Positions 30,592 through 39,410 of a DNA stretch of 64,000 nucleotides are shown piece after piece. This stretch comes from Arcticibacter pallidicorallinus (GTDB lineage Bacteria > Bacteroidota > Bacteroidia > Sphingobacteriales > Sphingobacteriaceae). Position 1 is the stretch's first letter. Every line of letters begins with the position of its first letter. Location of the stretch: assembly GCF_003002875.1 (NCBI RefSeq), contig NZ_PVTH01000004.1, forward strand, positions 186,001 to 250,000, written 5' to 3'. A model generated the notes under the pieces. The model had not been told where the DNA came from. It made no database searches and saw only the letters and a program-made list of their open reading frames with translations. A program made the position numbers and the translations under genes.

Positions 30592-32091
30592 TTATAAAAT
30601 AAACGGTGCCAGACCTTCTGCAATCTTACGATCGTTTGATAACCTGGGCACTTTGTTTTGACCTCCCAATTTACCCTCGCTCTTCATATACTGCTGGAAT
30701 GCTCCCTTAATCAAGCAACGTATAACGAGCGGCTGTAATATATTTCCCTTAATCAGATCAAAGTAGTAAATATTTTTCTTCTGCATTGCTTCGTCTACCT
30801 GCTTGCTAAATGCAACTAAATCATCTGGCTGACTAGCGAATTCAATAAACCACTCATGATATGGAAGTTCACCTGCGGATGGCGTCACCTGCGGTGCAAC
30901 CGTAAACTCGGTAATTTCCAGATGAGATTCTGCTGCCGCTTCCAGCAACGCACTCTCTACTTCTTCCCCTATCACATGCTCCCCAAAAGCAGAAATATAG
31001 TGTTTAATCCGGCCTGTCACCACAATTCGATATGGATTTTTTGAAACAAACCTTATCGTGTCACCAATGCTATATCCCCAAAGTCCGGCATTCGTATTGA
31101 GGATCAAAGCGTAGTTAGTGTCAAGCTCCACTTCTGCCAAACTCAAACGGCGTCGGTTTTCATTAAAATATTCTTCCGAAGGAATAAACTCATAAAACAT
31201 TCCGGCGTTTGTCAGAAGCAGCAAACCTCTTTCATTCTGCGAATCCTGATAGGCAATAAAGCCTTCGGAAGCCGGATATGTCTCAATAGAATCAATCTTT
31301 CTTCCGATTACCTCCTCCATCCGTTGCCGATAGGGCTCATAATTTACTCCTCCGTATACAAAGAGGCTAAAATTTTTGAATATATCCTTTATCTTCTTCC
31401 CTCCCGCCTTCGCAGACAATCGATCGAAATACATTTGCACCCAGGGCGGTATACCTGAAATAAGCGTCATATCTTCAGAAAATGTCTCCTCGACAATCGC
31501 ATCGACCTTTTCTTCCCAATCTTCGATACAATTTGTCTCATAAGACGGAAGCCGGTTCTTTTGCAAATATTGCGGAATATGATGCGCAACGATACCCGAA
31601 AGCCGACCTGTAGCAACGCCATGCTTCTCTGACAACACCGGACTCCCCTGCAGAAAAATCATCTTTCCATTTACAAAATCAGTTTTTCCGGTTTCATGTA
31701 TATAAGTTAACAGTGCACTCCGCGCTGCTTTGATATGCTCAGGCATGGATTCCTTTGAAATGGGAATGTATTTAACGCCCGACGTAGTACCAGAAGTTTT
31801 TGCAAGATAAGCAGGTTTACCTTTCCACAATATATCTGCTTCTCCTTTTACAACCCGCTCTATATAAGGCCGAAGATCTTCATAATCACGCACAGGTACG
31901 TTCTTTTTGAAGTCCTCGTAAGTCCGAATTTCATCGAAGTTGTGATCTTTGCCGAACGCAGTATAGCGCGCCTCATCCACAAGCGTAGCCATGACTTGCT
32001 GTTGCACTTCCACTGACCTCTTTTTCCACTTATTAATTTGGTAAACTGCCAACGCAGCAAAGGGCTTGCTAAGTTTCGCCTTAAGTCCCAT
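30592..32091 (-). CDS. GH3 auxin-responsive-promoter family protein (acyl-adenylate amide synthetase-like)
   Basis: A 499-residue member of the GH3 branch of adenylate-forming enzymes, known in plants for joining amino acids to hormones. The nucleotide-binding loop KTSGTTSG is at residues 98-105, and the family's YPASEGFIAYQ and NTNAGLWGYSIGDTIRF follow in the expected order. Bacterial substrates are unknown to me. No signal peptide or membrane helix is seen, so it is cytosolic. The position seven bases after a membrane-protein gene and just before dxr suggests it is a housekeeping member of this run. Confidence 0.85.
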   Translation of the reverse strand: MGLKAKLSKPFAALAVYQINKWKKRSVEVQQQVMATLVDEARYTAFGKDHNFDEIRTYEDFKKNVPVRDYEDLRPYIERVVKGEADILWKGKPAYLAKTSGTTSGVKYIPISKESMPEHIKAARSALLTYIHETGKTDFVNGKMIFLQGSPVLSEKHGVATGRLSGIVAHHIPQYLQKNRLPSYETNCIEDWEEKVDAIVEETFSEDMTLISGIPPWVQMYFDRLSAKAGGKKIKDIFKNFSLFVYGGVNYEPYRQRMEEVIGRKIDSIETYPASEGFIAYQDSQNERGLLLLTNAGMFYEFIPSEEYFNENRRRLSLAEVELDTNYALILNTNAGLWGYSIGDTIRFVSKNPYRIVVTGRIKHYISAFGEHVIGEEVESALLEAAAESHLEITEFTVAPQVTPSAGELPYHEWFIEFASQPDDLVAFSKQVDEAMQKKNIYYFDLIKGNILQPLVIRCLIKGAFQQYMKSEGKLGGQNKVPRLSNDRKIAEGLAPFIL

Positions 32092-32887: not shown

Positions 32888-33855
32888 GAATGTTTAAGAA
32901 TTATTCTCTTCCAAAAATCCTGCATAAAACCTAAGCCGTAAGCCATTAGCTGAACAAAGGATGCTGCTATACTTAAAAACGCAACCTTAGCTGATTTGTT
33001 CGCATTCCATGAATGAAAGAACAATAGCAGGATATATACAGCAATCAGAAAATTGCATACATCTGCCAGTTTGATGCTTAGCGCGTTTGCAAGCACTGTA
33101 AAAATAACAAATAATGTAAACAATGCCGGAAAGAAATGGACTGCTTTCAACTGAGACGGGAAAAATGTATAAATATTTATCCTCGCACGTCCAAAAAAAT
33201 GCAACTGCTTGTAGAATTGCTTAAAATCTGTACGCCTTTTATGAAATACTTTTGCCTCAGGAATCAAGCCGCTCTTAAAGCCCATCGACTGTATGCGGAT
33301 ACTGAATTCTATATCCTCCCCCAGACGGGTTAGAATAAAGCCATTCGTCGCCTCCCATACCCTCCTGGAAATCCCCATATTGAAGCTTCTCGGATGAAAT
33401 GATCCACCAATTCGCTTCCTGTTACCCCTGATACCCCCCGTCGTAAAGGGTGATGTCATCGAATAACTGATCGCTTTCTGAACGGGAGTGAATGACGAAT
33501 GCGCCGCATCAGGACCTCCAAAGGCGTCCAGCTGGTATTTCAATAAATGACGATAAACGATCTCGAGATAATCTGAAGGAATCAGACAATCAGAATCAAA
33601 CATAATAAAATAGTCGCCCTTGGCTAGTTTAAACGCATAATTGCGAGTAAAGCCTTGTCCTTCATTTTCTTTAAAATAATATCGGACATCTAGCTTATCC
33701 CGGTAGCCCTCAACAATTTCACGGGCATCTTTGACAGATCCGTCTTCGATAACAAGAACTTCAAACTGAGTATAGGTCTGAAGGGTAAGTGTATGCAAAA
33801 GCTCATCTACCTCCTGGGGTCTGTTGTATAACGGAATGATTATCGAAAAGAACAT
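32884..33855 (-). CDS. Family 2 glycosyltransferase, membrane-anchored
   Basis: A 323-residue protein with a GT-A fold: the N-terminal FSIIIPLYNRPQEVDELL, the DxD-type motif FDSDCLIP near residue 92, and GEDIEFSIRI as the acceptor-side ED motif. Two or three C-terminal hydrophobic segments (~245-310) anchor it in the membrane. It probably transfers a sugar to a lipid carrier or surface glycan. It touches the second GT2 gene upstream by one base and overlaps the membrane-protein gene downstream. Confidence 0.85.
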   Translation of the reverse strand: MFFSIIIPLYNRPQEVDELLHTLTLQTYTQFEVLVIEDGSVKDAREIVEGYRDKLDVRYYFKENEGQGFTRNYAFKLAKGDYFIMFDSDCLIPSDYLEIVYRHLLKYQLDAFGGPDAAHSSFTPVQKAISYSMTSPFTTGGIRGNRKRIGGSFHPRSFNMGISRRVWEATNGFILTRLGEDIEFSIRIQSMGFKSGLIPEAKVFHKRRTDFKQFYKQLHFFGRARINIYTFFPSQLKAVHFFPALFTLFVIFTVLANALSIKLADVCNFLIAVYILLLFFHSWNANKSAKVAFLSIAASFVQLMAYGLGFMQDFWKRIILKHS

Positions 33856-34805
33856 CAGGCCTCTCTTTCTATCTGGTAAGCATTACGTTCAGACGAATTA
33901 CGCGCTACAAGTTCCGCAACAAAGCCGGTCAGAAACAACTGGAAACCAACAATTATGGCCACGAGTGCGATAAAAAATAAGGGCTGGTCAGTAACGTTTC
34001 TGAACTTGTGCCCCTGAGATATATCATAAAGCTTTTCAGCAATCAACCATACCGATATAACGGTTCCTGCAAAAAAGCTCAGAACACCCATAGCACCGAA
34101 AAAATGCATAGGACGCTTGCCAAACTTCCCGACAAAAACGATAGACACCAAATCCAGAAAACCATTTATAAATCGGCTCAGACCAAATTTCGTAGTTCCG
34201 TATTTCCTTGGACGGTGTTCTACAACCTGCTCTCCTATCTTTTTAAACCCAGCCCATTTCGCAAGCACCGGTATATAACGGTGCATTTCCCCATAAACCT
34301 CGATACTCTTAATCACTTCCCGGCGATAAGCTTTCAATCCGCAATTAAAGTCATGAAGATTGTGGATTCCCGACATTTTCCTGGTAGCCGAGTTGAAGAG
34401 CTTGGTCGGTACTGTTTTCGTGATGGGATCATGCCGTTTCTTCTTCCACCCAGAAATAAGATCGTATTTATCGTCAACGATTCGGCTGTAAAGACCTGGT
34501 ATCTCATCTGGACTGTCCTGCAGATCTGCGTCCATCGTAATCACCACCCTGCCTTGCGCAGCCTCAAACCCGACATTTAGGGCGGCAGACTTGCCGTAAT
34601 TCCTTCTGAATTTAATCCCGCGAATGTGCGGATGTAGTTTCTTCAGGTCTTCTATTACTTCCCAGGAGCGATCTGTACTTCCGTCATCCACCAGAATTAT
34701 CTCGTAAGAATAGTTATGGGTCTCCATAACTCGGCGATTCCATTCAACTAATTCTGGCAGAGATTCTTCTTCGTTATATAGCGGTACGACTACAGATATA
34801 TCCAT
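33855..34805 (-). CDS. Family 2 glycosyltransferase of the DPM1/GtrB type
   Basis: An approximately 316-residue protein beginning MDISVVVPLYNEEESLPEL, with the DxD-type motif MDADLQDSPDEIPGL and two C-terminal membrane helices (around 230-255 and 270-300). This architecture is typical of polyprenyl-phosphate glycosyltransferases that load a sugar onto undecaprenyl phosphate. The longest frame begins at 34820 (MLNSH extension). I prefer the Met at 34805, since the fold starts right there. It may supply the donor for the adjacent GT2 protein; that pairing is inference. Confidence 0.86.
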   Translation of the reverse strand: MDISVVVPLYNEEESLPELVEWNRRVMETHNYSYEIILVDDGSTDRSWEVIEDLKKLHPHIRGIKFRRNYGKSAALNVGFEAAQGRVVITMDADLQDSPDEIPGLYSRIVDDKYDLISGWKKKRHDPITKTVPTKLFNSATRKMSGIHNLHDFNCGLKAYRREVIKSIEVYGEMHRYIPVLAKWAGFKKIGEQVVEHRPRKYGTTKFGLSRFINGFLDLVSIVFVGKFGKRPMHFFGAMGVLSFFAGTVISVWLIAEKLYDISQGHKFRNVTDQPLFFIALVAIIVGFQLFLTGFVAELVARNSSERNAYQIEREA

Positions 34806-34824
34806 ATGTGAGTTCAACATAGTA

Positions 34825-35409
34825 TTAGTCCTCTGCCCTCATAAAGACAGGAGGCTCTTTTTTAAATATCGCTGCAAAGATAAGCGCAACTACAAAAATT
34901 ATTATGATAGCTTGCAAATATCCCTGAACCATTTGTCCGGTACTCAGCTCAGCTCCTTCCGCAAATCCGGCATTTACCTTCTCCAATGATGCATCAATTT
35001 CATCCTGATTTGCTCCTTGACTTTCCAGGAACGAGGTGGTGACTCTAATAAGGTTTTCCTTGGTCTGAGCTTTCAACCCTGGTCCGCTTACTTTGTAAAA
35101 AATAGAATTGCCCACGGTTGAAAAGGTATAGGCCACGATAAACATGATAAATAGCCCTGTTGTTGCTTGCCTCAGAGTCCAGTACCCCCCAACCCGTTTC
35201 CTCAAATTCAGTGTCAAAAACACGGCAGCTCCAAGGGGTATCAGTAATGACACAATTAAGGGCGTTGCAACAACAAAGGCAAAACGCGCTGTATTTGCCA
35301 GCATATATACCGATATAATTCCGGCAAGCAGCACGATAATACCAAAGATGAGGCCATTAATGGCCCCACCTTTTTTCAATTCTCTCTGATCTAATGATAT
35401 TTCGGCCAC
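34825..35409 (-). CDS. DUF4199 family membrane protein
   Basis: A 194-residue protein with four hydrophobic helices (about residues 17-40, 45-68, 82-104 and 163-185) and a hydrophilic loop between helices 3 and 4 rich in charged residues. This layout matches DUF4199, a family found mainly in Bacteroidota and of unknown function. It is commonly encoded next to dolichyl-phosphate-type glycosyltransferases, as here. Its ATG directly abuts the stop codon of the acidic protein upstream. Confidence 0.8.
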   Translation of the reverse strand: MAEISLDQRELKKGGAINGLIFGIIVLLAGIISVYMLANTARFAFVVATPLIVSLLIPLGAAVFLTLNLRKRVGGYWTLRQATTGLFIMFIVAYTFSTVGNSIFYKVSGPGLKAQTKENLIRVTTSFLESQGANQDEIDASLEKVNAGFAEGAELSTGQMVQGYLQAIIIIFVVALIFAAIFKKEPPVFMRAED

Positions 35410-36084
35410 CTATTCTCCTTCATTAAACGCTACTAACATAGAGTAGACTACAGCATCAAATTCCGGATCCTGACTGTAGTTGATGACCTCCTGGACTTCA
35501 TCATCCTCAGGAGTGGTCTGTAGGAAGAAGCACATCACCGGATAAAACAAATCTCCTATTTCAGACTCTTCAGACAAACTTGCAGAAACTTTGCTGATCT
35601 CCTCAACATTACTTTCCATAAGTACCTGGTTGGCTATCATATCTTCATAGATGCGATGCTCATCCTGGAACTCATCCTCATCAACCAACAGGAACTCCTT
35701 CAAAAAGTCTTCAAGCTCCGGCTGAATATCCTCATCTTCGCACTCCTGAATATAAAGTAATACGTTCAGCAGTTCTGTCCCACGGTCGATCGTCTGGTTT
35801 TCAATTTCCTCCCACTCAGGAGTCTCCAGATAGTCTTCCTCCAGCTTATGCACATCTTCTGAAAAGAAGTTGACCATCAGCAGATCAAAGAACACCTCCC
35901 GAAGGTTCTCCAACGATGGCTCATCGTCAAACGCGGCGTCAAGATCCGCAACCTTTTCCATAAAACCTTTCTCAGAATCGAAGACAGCACTGATCTTGTC
36001 CTGAAACTCGCCAACTGATTTTCCTGAGATACTCTCAAATTGCGCTAACGCGGCATTGACTGCCTTTTCGATCTGTTTTTCCAT
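35410..36084 (-). CDS. Highly acidic hypothetical protein
   Basis: A 224-residue soluble protein very rich in Asp and Glu, predicted to be mostly helical, with no signal peptide, membrane helix or recognised motif. It lies five bases after the dihydroorotase-like gene and abuts the DUF4199 gene, so it is firmly inside the operon. I do not recognise its family and infer no function. Confidence 0.75.
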   Translation of the reverse strand: MEKQIEKAVNAALAQFESISGKSVGEFQDKISAVFDSEKGFMEKVADLDAAFDDEPSLENLREVFFDLLMVNFFSEDVHKLEEDYLETPEWEEIENQTIDRGTELLNVLLYIQECEDEDIQPELEDFLKEFLLVDEDEFQDEHRIYEDMIANQVLMESNVEEISKVSASLSEESEIGDLFYPVMCFFLQTTPEDDEVQEVINYSQDPEFDAVVYSMLVAFNEGE

Positions 36085-36089
36085 AGTCC

Positions 36090-37358
36090 TTATTGTTGAT
36101 AATAAAACTGTTCATTGTTACACACGGCCAAAACCCTTCCTTTTAATATTTGACCCATAAAAGGTGAATTGGCCGATTTAGATTTATTGCTGCTTGCCTC
36201 AAAGACCCATTCCAAATCTTCACTAAAGAGAACGAAGTTGGCAACCTGTCCTTCTTCCAGAGGCGGTAAAGGCAAATTCAATATCTTCCTCGGATTTACA
36301 GCTAGCTTTTCCACCAGCAGTTCAATCGGAAGTCCGGTTTTAAGCGCCAACGGAAGAACCGTTTGCAAGCCTATGATTCCAAACGAGGCAATTTCAAACT
36401 CCACATCTTTAAACTCAATTTCGTGCGGCGTATGCTGCGATACTATCGCGTCAATCGTGCCATCTCTTAAGCCTTCCAAAAGTGCATCGACATCTTCCTT
36501 AGCTCTCAACGGCGGTTTAACTTTATAGTTGGTATCGAAGCCCTTCAGAACCTCATCTGTAAGTACCAAATGATGAGCCGCGACGTCGCAGGTCACACGG
36601 GTTCCCTTCGCTTTTGCTTCGCGGATCAGCCTTACGCTTCCCGCTGAAGAAATGGTGCTGAAATGTATTCTCGAGTCATTGTATTCTGCTAAATACAAAT
36701 CTCTCGAAATAGCAATCTCTTCCGCAAGGTTCGGAATACCCTTCATTCCCAAAAAAGTACTAACGATTCCTTCGTTCATTTTACCTTTCCCTGCTACTGA
36801 GCTATCTTCAGGATAAGAAAATACAAGTCCGCCAAATCCCTTTGCATAAAGTAAAGCCCTGCTCATAAGTCCCGAGTCATTTATCGGCCGGTTACCGTCA
36901 GTAAATGCGACTGCTCCTGCAAGCTTCATATCGTAGAGCTCGGCAAGGTCCTTACCTTCTCTTCCCTGACTAATACAACCTAAAGGATGAATATCTGCCA
37001 GAAAGCTGGAACTGCGATTTACTATGTAAGAAACTTCCGACTTGGAATGCACGGGCGGATGGGTAGAGGGTTGAAGAGCTAATCCCGTAAATCCACCGGC
37101 AACAGCTGCCAGGGTTCCACTTATCAGATCCTCACGGGTCTCATAACCTGGTTCGCCAAAACTAGCGTTAAGATCAAAAAATCCGGGAGCCAGGTAGCAC
37201 CCTTCTGAGTTTATTACTTGCAGCCCCTCCATGTTGGCGTCAATATTCACAGACAGCTCCACAATCTTACCGTCTTTAATCAATACATCAACAGACTTTT
37301 TATGATATTCAGAGCTTGGATAGATAAGAGTAGCTGAGCGAAAGAGTAGTGTATTCAT
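36090..37358 (-). CDS. Dihydroorotase-like protein lacking the metal-binding and catalytic residues
   Basis: A 422-residue amidohydrolase-fold protein aligned over its whole length with class I dihydroorotase, the third step of pyrimidine synthesis. The active site is nearly all replaced. The HxHxR signature reads N64-A-S66-F-G68 before EPG. The HcED histidine is Tyr183, the HIcH histidine is Thr235, and the catalytic Asp of TDHAPH is Gln308 in SQHTPH. Structural motifs (GLQTVLPL, KVKPPLR, VTCDVAAHHLVLTDE) are kept. This resembles the inactive PyrC-prime proteins that support aspartate transcarbamoylase assembly. A scaffolding or regulatory role is therefore likelier than catalysis. It sits in the operon between a BatA-like gene and the acidic protein. 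Confidence 0.85.
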   Translation of the reverse strand: MNTLLFRSATLIYPSSEYHKKSVDVLIKDGKIVELSVNIDANMEGLQVINSEGCYLAPGFFDLNASFGEPGYETREDLISGTLAAVAGGFTGLALQPSTHPPVHSKSEVSYIVNRSSSFLADIHPLGCISQGREGKDLAELYDMKLAGAVAFTDGNRPINDSGLMSRALLYAKGFGGLVFSYPEDSSVAGKGKMNEGIVSTFLGMKGIPNLAEEIAISRDLYLAEYNDSRIHFSTISSAGSVRLIREAKAKGTRVTCDVAAHHLVLTDEVLKGFDTNYKVKPPLRAKEDVDALLEGLRDGTIDAIVSQHTPHEIEFKDVEFEIASFGIIGLQTVLPLALKTGLPIELLVEKLAVNPRKILNLPLPPLEEGQVANFVLFSEDLEWVFEASSNKSKSANSPFMGQILKGRVLAVCNNEQFYYQQ

Positions 37359-37373
37359 TTGATCGTTAATCTA

Positions 37374-39410
37374 TTAAGTCTTCTGCCCATAATAACGCAG
37401 GAGCAGGATTTCCGCAGCAAGGCAAATCAGGGATAAAATTAGACAAAGTTTCCACAACTGCACACCATAATTTTCGGCTTTTATTTCTGATGCCAACATA
37501 TTGTCAGCTGTGTCATACAGCTTCGAAGCCGCGTCTGGGAAAACTTTCTCAAGCATGTCGTCGCTCAAATAGCTTAAGTCAGATTCGGATGGATTGATAT
37601 TAAAAGCAACCTTGCTTATTAAACGGTCACCGCGTGTTAAATCGTAAATTCCAGGCTGGATTACCTGGTCCGAGATAAACATTCTGACACCGCTTTCTGT
37701 TTGCCTGATATCGGGAATGATTTCGCTGTCCCCATCCCTCAATCTAAGTCCTTCCCTGCTACCTGAATCCGAACTCTTCAAGTTAATTAGTTCATCCTTC
37801 CCAAGGGTATAATAGAGAGGCTGATCTCGAAGACTGGAAAATGCAGACTGGTACATAATTGGGACAAAGAGTGAATGCCTTACAAGATTCGAACTCTCTT
37901 CATCGGCTGCAACGGCCGACAAGAATACCTGCCCTGCTCCTACTGCGTATTGAGCCAGAAGCAGATGCTTATTCTCAAATTTAAGTAGAGTCCGGCGACT
38001 GCTTCTAATCATATCCGAATACCGCACATACGATTTCGCTTCGGGGAGATCCATGTTCCTGGGTATCGCTTGAAAAACGTCTCTGAAGATCGAATGGCTA
38101 CGATCCATATAGTCCGTTTTAACCGTCTCTTCAACCCTACCCAATGGTTTATCAATACCGAGACGCAAGCTAAGACTTTCCAACTCAGACAGCTTTCCTT
38201 CCGAAGGAGGAAAAAGAAACAGAGTCCCTCCTTTACGAACATATTCTGTCAACCGTTGAATCAGACCTTCACTGATGCTTGCCGAACCAGGTAAGACAAC
38301 CATCGGATAGGCATCGAGCCACGAATAGTTTACATGGCCCACATCGGTATGCTCCGCCTTAAAAAACGCTTCGGACCGATATACTGCATCAACATATACG
38401 TTTGGTTCCTTGTTGTCAAGTATGAGAATGGGTAAGGATTCCCTGACGGGATAAGTGAAGAAATACCGGTCATCAAAAGTAAAGGGATTATCAACTATTG
38501 CTACACTTGCTTCCTGCCAGCCGCTCGCCGGCGAGTTGAAAGCCAATGTATCCAAAGCATCCTGCCGCCCTTCAATATCAACGCTTGAGAGCGCCTTCTG
38601 ATGACCTCCTACCTGCAATTTGACGGTTACCTGCTCCGCTTTGTTATCAGAGTTATTGCGCAGTCTAACTACCAGTTGTTCCGGTCCCCCGGGTTTATGC
38701 AGTGGCGACACAAACCATAAAGAATCAATTGAAATATTAGTTAGACCTTCAGCCTTAAGTTTAACTAACGAATAGCGGCTCAAAGAGTCGGTACCAACCT
38801 GCTGCCCGTCCCAGAGGTTACGTTGAAAATCCGACAGAAAATAGGCGACTTTCGAATTAACTGGCTTTCCGCTGAACAACATATTCTGCCGGTCTAACAC
38901 TTCTCTGACGCTACGGCTACGTGCGCTTATACGAATAGTATCGACCGCCTCCTGAAATTCCTCTTTTGTCATCAGCCGCTGATGAAGTCCTTCGAAATCA
39001 TTTGTCACGAGCTGAATCTTCGTATTTGCGCCGTATACGGCCGCGATATCCTTAGCCTTCTTCTTTGCCTCTTCCAATAAGCTACCCTCACGGCTGACAG
39101 CTTCCATACTGTATGAATTATCGATATAGACGCTGACATACTTAGCATCAGCTCCAGCAGCACCTTCATGATCAGCAACATATGGCCGTGCAAAAGCGAG
39201 TACTAAAAATGCCACCGCGAGCGATCGACACAACAATAAAGCGTAGCGTTTAACCTGTCTTGACCCCGTTGTCTCTAGCTCAACCTTCTTCAGCAACGAT
39301 ACGTTCGAAAAATAGACCCTCTTGAAACGCCTGAAATTAAAAAGATGAACAATTACAGGAACTGCAATCAAGCCAAGCGCAAACAGAAACTCGGGAAAAA
39401 GAAATCGCAT
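37374..39410 (-). CDS. BatA-domain, von Willebrand-like membrane protein
   Basis: A 678-residue protein opening with the aerotolerance BatA N-terminal domain: FLFPEFLFALGLIAVPVIVHLF as the first membrane helix, then the basic loop and a second helix near 55-78. A VWA-like domain follows (YVSVYIDNSYSME, a partial metal-ion site), then a long periplasmic part and a C-terminal helix (about 650-672). Function in Bacteroidota is unknown; related Bat proteins act in envelope stress or oxygen tolerance. It is the first gene of the ten-gene minus-strand run. A TAnnTTTG-like box at 39422-39415 is too close to the ATG to be convincing. Confidence 0.8.
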   Translation of the reverse strand: MRFLFPEFLFALGLIAVPVIVHLFNFRRFKRVYFSNVSLLKKVELETTGSRQVKRYALLLCRSLAVAFLVLAFARPYVADHEGAAGADAKYVSVYIDNSYSMEAVSREGSLLEEAKKKAKDIAAVYGANTKIQLVTNDFEGLHQRLMTKEEFQEAVDTIRISARSRSVREVLDRQNMLFSGKPVNSKVAYFLSDFQRNLWDGQQVGTDSLSRYSLVKLKAEGLTNISIDSLWFVSPLHKPGGPEQLVVRLRNNSDNKAEQVTVKLQVGGHQKALSSVDIEGRQDALDTLAFNSPASGWQEASVAIVDNPFTFDDRYFFTYPVRESLPILILDNKEPNVYVDAVYRSEAFFKAEHTDVGHVNYSWLDAYPMVVLPGSASISEGLIQRLTEYVRKGGTLFLFPPSEGKLSELESLSLRLGIDKPLGRVEETVKTDYMDRSHSIFRDVFQAIPRNMDLPEAKSYVRYSDMIRSSRRTLLKFENKHLLLAQYAVGAGQVFLSAVAADEESSNLVRHSLFVPIMYQSAFSSLRDQPLYYTLGKDELINLKSSDSGSREGLRLRDGDSEIIPDIRQTESGVRMFISDQVIQPGIYDLTRGDRLISKVAFNINPSESDLSYLSDDMLEKVFPDAASKLYDTADNMLASEIKAENYGVQLWKLCLILSLICLAAEILLLRYYGQKT

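Follow-up and report, generated by a model that had tools for sequence, protein, structure and literature searches.

A degenerate dihydroorotase found across a class of Bacteroidota, a probable structural partner of aspartate transcarbamoylase

The closest described counterparts of the gene reported here are dihydroorotase (DHO) homologues associated with aspartate transcarbamoylase (ATCase). The Pseudomonas PyrC-prime, or pDHO, of class A2 is an inactive DHO homologue of about 45 kDa that has lost its zinc ligands, in genomes with a separate PyrC and no PyrI. The Pseudomonas PyrC-prime gene adjoins pyrB. Class A2 is further characterised by a dodecamer of the pseudo-DHO with PyrB, which on its own is monomeric or inactive. 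In P. aeruginosa, the dead DHO is reported to be needed for the ATCase chain to form an active trimer (PMC7053772). The rhizobial PyrX (S. meliloti smc01361) is annotated as a DHO and described as a proposed inactive form needed for PyrB, with an essential PyrC elsewhere, and disruption of its gene, which adjoins pyrB, is reported to cause pyrimidine auxotrophy (PMC5929573). In class A1, the DHO of the Aquifex aeolicus DHO-ATC complex (3d6n, 4bjh) is active and has all its ligands. In this enzyme, H61, H63 and D153 are reported to bind a single zinc with D305 as the next closest ligand, and the H180A/H232A mutant to retain activity, so that H180 and H232 are dispensable (PMC3880350). A dead DHO-like domain is also retained in the ATCase-bearing fungal CAD (5nnl), in which, unlike the separate protein described here, the domains of a eukaryotic polypeptide are fused. 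None of the papers listed by our literature search, in which the lists were capped at 20 or 30, deals with an inactive DHO of Bacteroidota, and an earlier notice is possible, for example in papers on ATCase evolution (Labedan 2004, Barba 2013).

We analysed a stretch of 64,000 nucleotides, hereafter the window, which carries an uninterrupted ORF of 422 aa with an ATG start (Table 1). Its product scored 326 bits against TIGR00857 (dihydroorotase, multi/type-I; NCBIfam), for which the cut-off is 279, and gave no Pfam match at E ≤ 0.001. The top PDB sequence match was the A. aeolicus DHO 3d6n_A (E = 1.2e-85), covering residues 4–420 of 422, and the fungal domain 5nnl was matched weakly (E = 1e-7). 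These values bore out the proposal, made from the sequence alone, that structural motifs are kept over the full length of an intact gene. The structure predicted from 37 sequences had a mean pLDDT of 92.3, with values below 50 solely at residues 194–205, and the product is thus modelled as a full-length type-I DHO fold. Over 417 residues, the model most resembles the two DHO chains of A. aeolicus that are bound to ATC, with Z = 56.5 and 55.9. This ranking was rejected as a sign of ATC binding, because the T. thermophilus DHO ties with these chains (Z = 55.5) and fewer residues are ordered in the unbound chains of A. aeolicus; the model confirms the fold and says nothing on the partner. A chance alignment with DHO is ruled out by E = 1e-85, and a frameshift artefact by the open frames in relatives. 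The closest named relatives among the matches listed bear Sphingobacteriaceae names, the best being Desertivirga at 71%.

Table 1. Positions of the pseudo-DHO gene, its altered site codons (A. aeolicus numbering for the replaced residues) and the neighbouring genes in the window
Feature	Position	Strand	Basis
Pseudo-dihydroorotase gene, 422 aa, degenerate PyrC of multi / type-I kind	36090..37358	(-)	ORF, TIGR00857, PDB sequence match, alignment, predicted structure
Asn64 codon, replaces zinc ligand His61	37167..37169	(-)	alignment
Ser66 codon, replaces zinc ligand His63	37161..37163	(-)	alignment
Gly68 codon, replaces substrate Arg65	37155..37157	(-)	alignment
Gly155 codon, replaces zinc ligand Asp153	36894..36896	(-)	alignment
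Tyr182 codon, replaces His180	36813..36815	(-)	alignment
Thr235 codon, replaces His232	36654..36656	(-)	alignment
Gln308 codon, replaces catalytic Asp305	36435..36437	(-)	alignment
BatA-like membrane protein gene, immediately upstream, same direction	37374..39410	(-)	PF07584
224-aa protein, function not assigned, immediately downstream	35410..36084	(-)	matched in 65/80 named loci (best 80 of 568 relatives)
DUF4199 protein gene, same gene string	34825..35409	(-)	PF13858
Family 2 glycosyltransferase, same gene string	33855..34820	(-)	PF00535

The alignment with the A. aeolicus DHO placed the site residues in the window protein, in which H61, H63, D153, R65 and D305 read N64, S66, G155, G68 and Q308, respectively. 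In addition, N95 is changed to S98, and H309 is retained as H312. Since the H180A/H232A mutant is still active and H61, H63 and D153 hold the zinc, the decisive loss is that of H61, H63, D153 and D305, and all four are absent from the window protein. The erased active site claimed by the sequence-only reading was therefore confirmed. Its list of replaced residues was correct for N64, S66, G68, Thr235 and Gln308; one number was wrong (Tyr183, properly Tyr182), and the change of Asp153 to Gly155 had been omitted.

The genome that carries the window encodes a PyrB with STRTR, HPTQ and HPGP motifs (G000:C6:60661) and a PyrC of the PRK09236 type (G000:C8:135758, E = 1.4e-223). Neither PyrI nor an E. 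coli-type PyrC was found in this genome. The search for a second pyrC suggested by the sequence-only reading thus led to a separate gene, whose activity is assumed from the pathway. Two properties of a class A2 pseudo-DHO subunit are found here, namely the absence of zinc and substrate residues from a DHO homologue and the presence of separate PyrC and PyrB without PyrI. A location beside pyrB is not, as pyrB lies on contig C6 and the pseudo-DHO gene on C4. No pyrB was found beside the pseudo-DHO gene in the window or in 101 loci (80 named ones and 21 unnamed same-class ones; flanks of 1.5 kb or up to 6 kb). A 195-aa ORF directly upstream of another pyrB (L037:841-1428) presumably resembles PyrR.

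The PRK09236-type PyrC scored over the cut-off in 61 of 247 genomes of the phylum; by hand count, it is present in 59 of the 61 genomes that belong to the window's class and in 2 of the 186 that do not. The other-class genome G087 has a PRK09236 PyrC together with a type-I DHO match. The two same-class exceptions are G072, which has an intact pyrB-adjacent DHO, and G166, in which no PyrB scored over the cut-off. We infer that the class gained a second DHO and that the first decayed. Of 31 sequences of the presumed active PRK09236 PyrC that were read, among them L003:1306-2682 (G000:C8), 25 have Gln at the position of the leading His of the HxH metal pair and 6 have His; seven other site columns are kept in 31/31.

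The distribution of the gene was counted by hand in 217 genomes of the window's class, taking E of at most 1e-40 as a strong relative. Such a relative was present in 186 genomes. The gene is not peculiar to this genome. PyrI was found in none of the 186 genomes with a strong DHO match versus 10 of the 31 without (Fisher 8.6e-10, the genomes not being independent). Among these ten, G386 is slightly under the cut-off, and the match of G029 is a fragment with stops. Within the class, PyrI occurs in five families, which implies few independent losses. A profile search of three of the ten gave PyrC-placed matches and one weak fragment.

The absence of the pseudo-DHO was accompanied by other kinds of PyrB. 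In 32 other rows labelled as carrying the pseudo-DHO, PyrB is 66–89% identical to that of the window genome (L163 was dropped from the PyrB set as the same stretch as L124). The PyrBs of nine PyrI rows are 32–35% identical and lie apart in the tree. Three genomes of family f3 without pseudo-DHO (G012, G095, G210) have PyrBs 38–42% identical, which group with B. subtilis PyrB at 100/98, a placement for which the program warns of long branches meeting. In G317, PyrB is foreign and the search gave no pseudo-DHO; in its genus-mate G360, both types of PyrB occur together with a degenerate DHO. The presence of the gene may go with a native PyrB outside classes B and C; the independent events are few, and there are five exceptions. 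In the draft assemblies of G421, G426 and G428, PyrB is native-like (81, 74 and 66% identical) and no pseudo-DHO was found even by profile search. G293 has a divergent PyrB (50%) and no pseudo-DHO was found in its draft assembly; G357 has the pseudo-DHO and no PyrB match, also in a draft assembly. A contig-end fragment of G428 (L326) was rejected as a pseudo-DHO, having a PyrC-like ATDHAPH motif, and G428 therefore counts as an exception. In G196, a genome from outside the class, PyrI occurs together with two PyrB copies over the cut-off and an intact DHO, which shows that PyrI is compatible with a type-I DHO.

Distance covariation was also calculated for 28 genomes. The partial r was 0.61 for PyrB-pseudoDHO versus 0.55 for PyrB-PyrC, and 0.33 versus 0.60 when the fast clades were removed; permuted partial correlations were as high in 0, 2 and 0 of 2000 cases in three sets. 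Because the PyrC control was not discriminated, this measure was dropped as evidence singling out the PyrB-pseudoDHO pair.

An active DHO lies beside pyrB in 4 of 12 sister-class genomes (L017/L129, L034, L036, L128), the 12 being other-class genomes with an active DHO whose DHO or PyrB locus was read with 1.5 kb flanks. The PyrBs of these neighbour genomes are 59–61% identical to that of the window genome. Those of five other-class genomes with an active DHO are 55–61% identical, and that of a sixth (G010) is 49%.

Taken together, the pseudo-DHO has probably lost its catalytic function and been retained to support PyrB structurally, in a class-A2-like arrangement with its gene unlinked. Among the roles considered, that described for P. 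aeruginosa and S. meliloti appears the most likely. What we observed is the erosion of the site in 121 same-class sequences, purifying selection, a separate PyrC and, among the genomes sampled from the class, a pattern of exclusion between the gene and PyrI, with its exceptions. Physical binding to PyrB, the need of PyrB for its partner and the order of events would complete the picture as follows. Ancestrally, PyrB may have formed a complex with an active type-I DHO like that of A. aeolicus, and the pairing of the two genes in some sister-class genomes points in this direction. The class ancestor would then have gained the PRK09236-type PyrC, which took over catalysis. The gene of the old DHO would have become separated from pyrB, and its metal and substrate sites would have eroded along many routes, the protein being retained because the native PyrB would require it for assembly or stability. 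Finally, it would have been lost when PyrB was replaced by class B (PyrB and PyrI) or by a B. subtilis-like class C trimer.

The sequence-only reading had proposed a counterpart of the Pseudomonas PyrC-prime. This comparison, made by description, is well supported by the separate PyrC, native PyrB, lack of PyrI, purifying selection and the absence of the gene where PyrB differs; physical assistance of PyrB is the part that we infer. Unlike the Pseudomonas gene, that of the window sits away from pyrB in a string of BatA and glycosyltransferase genes. It shares with the rhizobial PyrX the presence of a DHO-type gene besides a separate PyrC, and differs from it, too, in being unlinked. The A. aeolicus complex provides the closest solved sequence for both chains, but its DHO keeps the ligands that the window protein lacks. 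Compared with the known pseudo-DHOs, the present one appears new in that its gene is unlinked, class-wide and eroded in many ways.

The neighbourhood of the gene offers a different role, in which the dead DHO was recruited to the envelope and works with the BatA-like protein encoded upstream, independently of PyrB. The envelope-gene setting noticed in the window proved to be conserved, which is the strongest argument for a role with BatA: of the 76 named loci for which enough sequence was available (from the best 80 of 568 relatives), 56 have a BatA-like gene directly upstream in the same orientation. The adjacency also occurs in records labelled Chitinophaga, Flavobacterium and Tenacibaculum. 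The window gene string runs from BatA through the pseudo-DHO, the 224-aa protein and DUF4199 to glycosyltransferases, and a role with BatA would also explain G421, G426, G428 and G357. However, no adjacent BatA was found by BLAST in 20 of the 76 loci, mostly of Sphingobacterium and Parapedobacter, and the gene is still kept there. Moreover, the absence of the pseudo-DHO tracks other PyrB kinds (PyrI genomes, f3, G317), and no BatA match was found beside the active DHOs of L017, L025, L027, L029-L031, L034 and L036, a weak point as BatA diverges fast. We therefore regard recruitment to the envelope as unlikely. The 224-aa protein gave no Pfam or NCBIfam match at E ≤ 0.001. Further along, window 30592-32091(-) encodes a GH3-family protein, whose sole NCBIfam match, lyso-ornithine lipid synthetase OlsH, is under the cut-off (409 vs 620 bits).

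The protein could also be an active enzyme with an altered site, for example another cyclic amide hydrolase that is metal-free or uses other ligands. A P. aeruginosa PyrC paralogue without the zinc residues is reported to have activity (PMC2770081). Asp154, His309 and His312 are still found close to the former site. The site was read in 121 sequences of the class, with that of the window among them; 112 come from the 186 strong-match genomes, and G072, G283 and G409, also strong matches, were read outside the 121. Left out were G072, a same-class genome with an intact DHO adjoining pyrB, the sequences of f64 g143, f75 and f80, and G261, which has a frame of ambiguous kind only (L325). The zinc triad H61/H63/D153 was kept together in 0/121 versus 19/19 sequences from other classes, in which all site residues are intact. 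His61 and His63 were both kept in merely 4 of the 121, and His63 and His232 in none of 81 (the window and the best 80 of 568 relatives). Position 305, at the 71st conservation percentile, has Asp in 76% of the same-class set, which would suit an altered-site enzyme. In contrast, positions 61, 63, 65, 153, 180 and 232, invariant in the active set, lie at the 10th–37th percentile, and the seven former site positions show 87 distinct patterns, unlike one shared new active site. An altered-site enzyme thus appears very improbable.

Families f64 (genus g143) and f75 had been candidates for lacking the gene. This was rejected, as profile search and reading of the sequences (eight ambiguous rows dropped from the base set, two of them re-extracted) gave very divergent copies; their genomes are counted among the 31 without strong match, and the PyrB-tree label 'no_DHOm' overstates absence there. 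The DHO homologues of f75 (L237, L239, L328-L331; 371–397 aa) are extremely divergent and occur with a fast-evolving PyrB.

The gene is under purifying selection, with dN/dS of 0.02–0.09 in 47 overlapping pairs of named relatives of at least 78% nucleotide identity (Nei-Gojobori); dS exceeds 1 in many pairs, for which the ratio is unreliable, and it is 0.08–0.09 in the two closest pairs, with dS of about 0.2. The pair Glu140/Asp143 is present in 119/121 same-class sequences versus 7/19 active homologues, and it represents a constraint kept or gained as the catalytic constraint vanished. A functionless decaying relic, which the heavily eroded site and the very divergent copies of f64 and f75 might suggest, is hardly credible against these ratios, this pair and the long open frames in the relatives read.

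If PyrB is indeed the partner, family models mislabel as dihydroorotase a gene present in most genomes of the class, and ATCase in the class would consist of two subunits, the second of them encoded at an unlinked locus. Within one phylum, the same protein would then exist as an active form linked to pyrB and as a dead, unlinked form, and would be missing elsewhere, replacement of PyrB providing the way out. It would also become directly testable why an active chain grows dependent on an inactive one. A bolder picture, to which we give little credence, is that ATCase in nearly the whole class has an overlooked and wrongly annotated second subunit, namely a DHO that was displaced from catalysis by a PyrC from a different lineage, trapped as a scaffold and lost only upon PyrB replacement, and that the BatA neighbourhood leads pyrimidine synthesis to be expressed, or even anchored, with the envelope machinery.

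In another class of the phylum, G001 (L144, L217) has a degenerate DHO with Tyr, Phe and Gly for H61, H63 and R65, directly adjoining pyrB. This is the arrangement reported for Sinorhizobium, and G001 is possibly an independent class A2 case.
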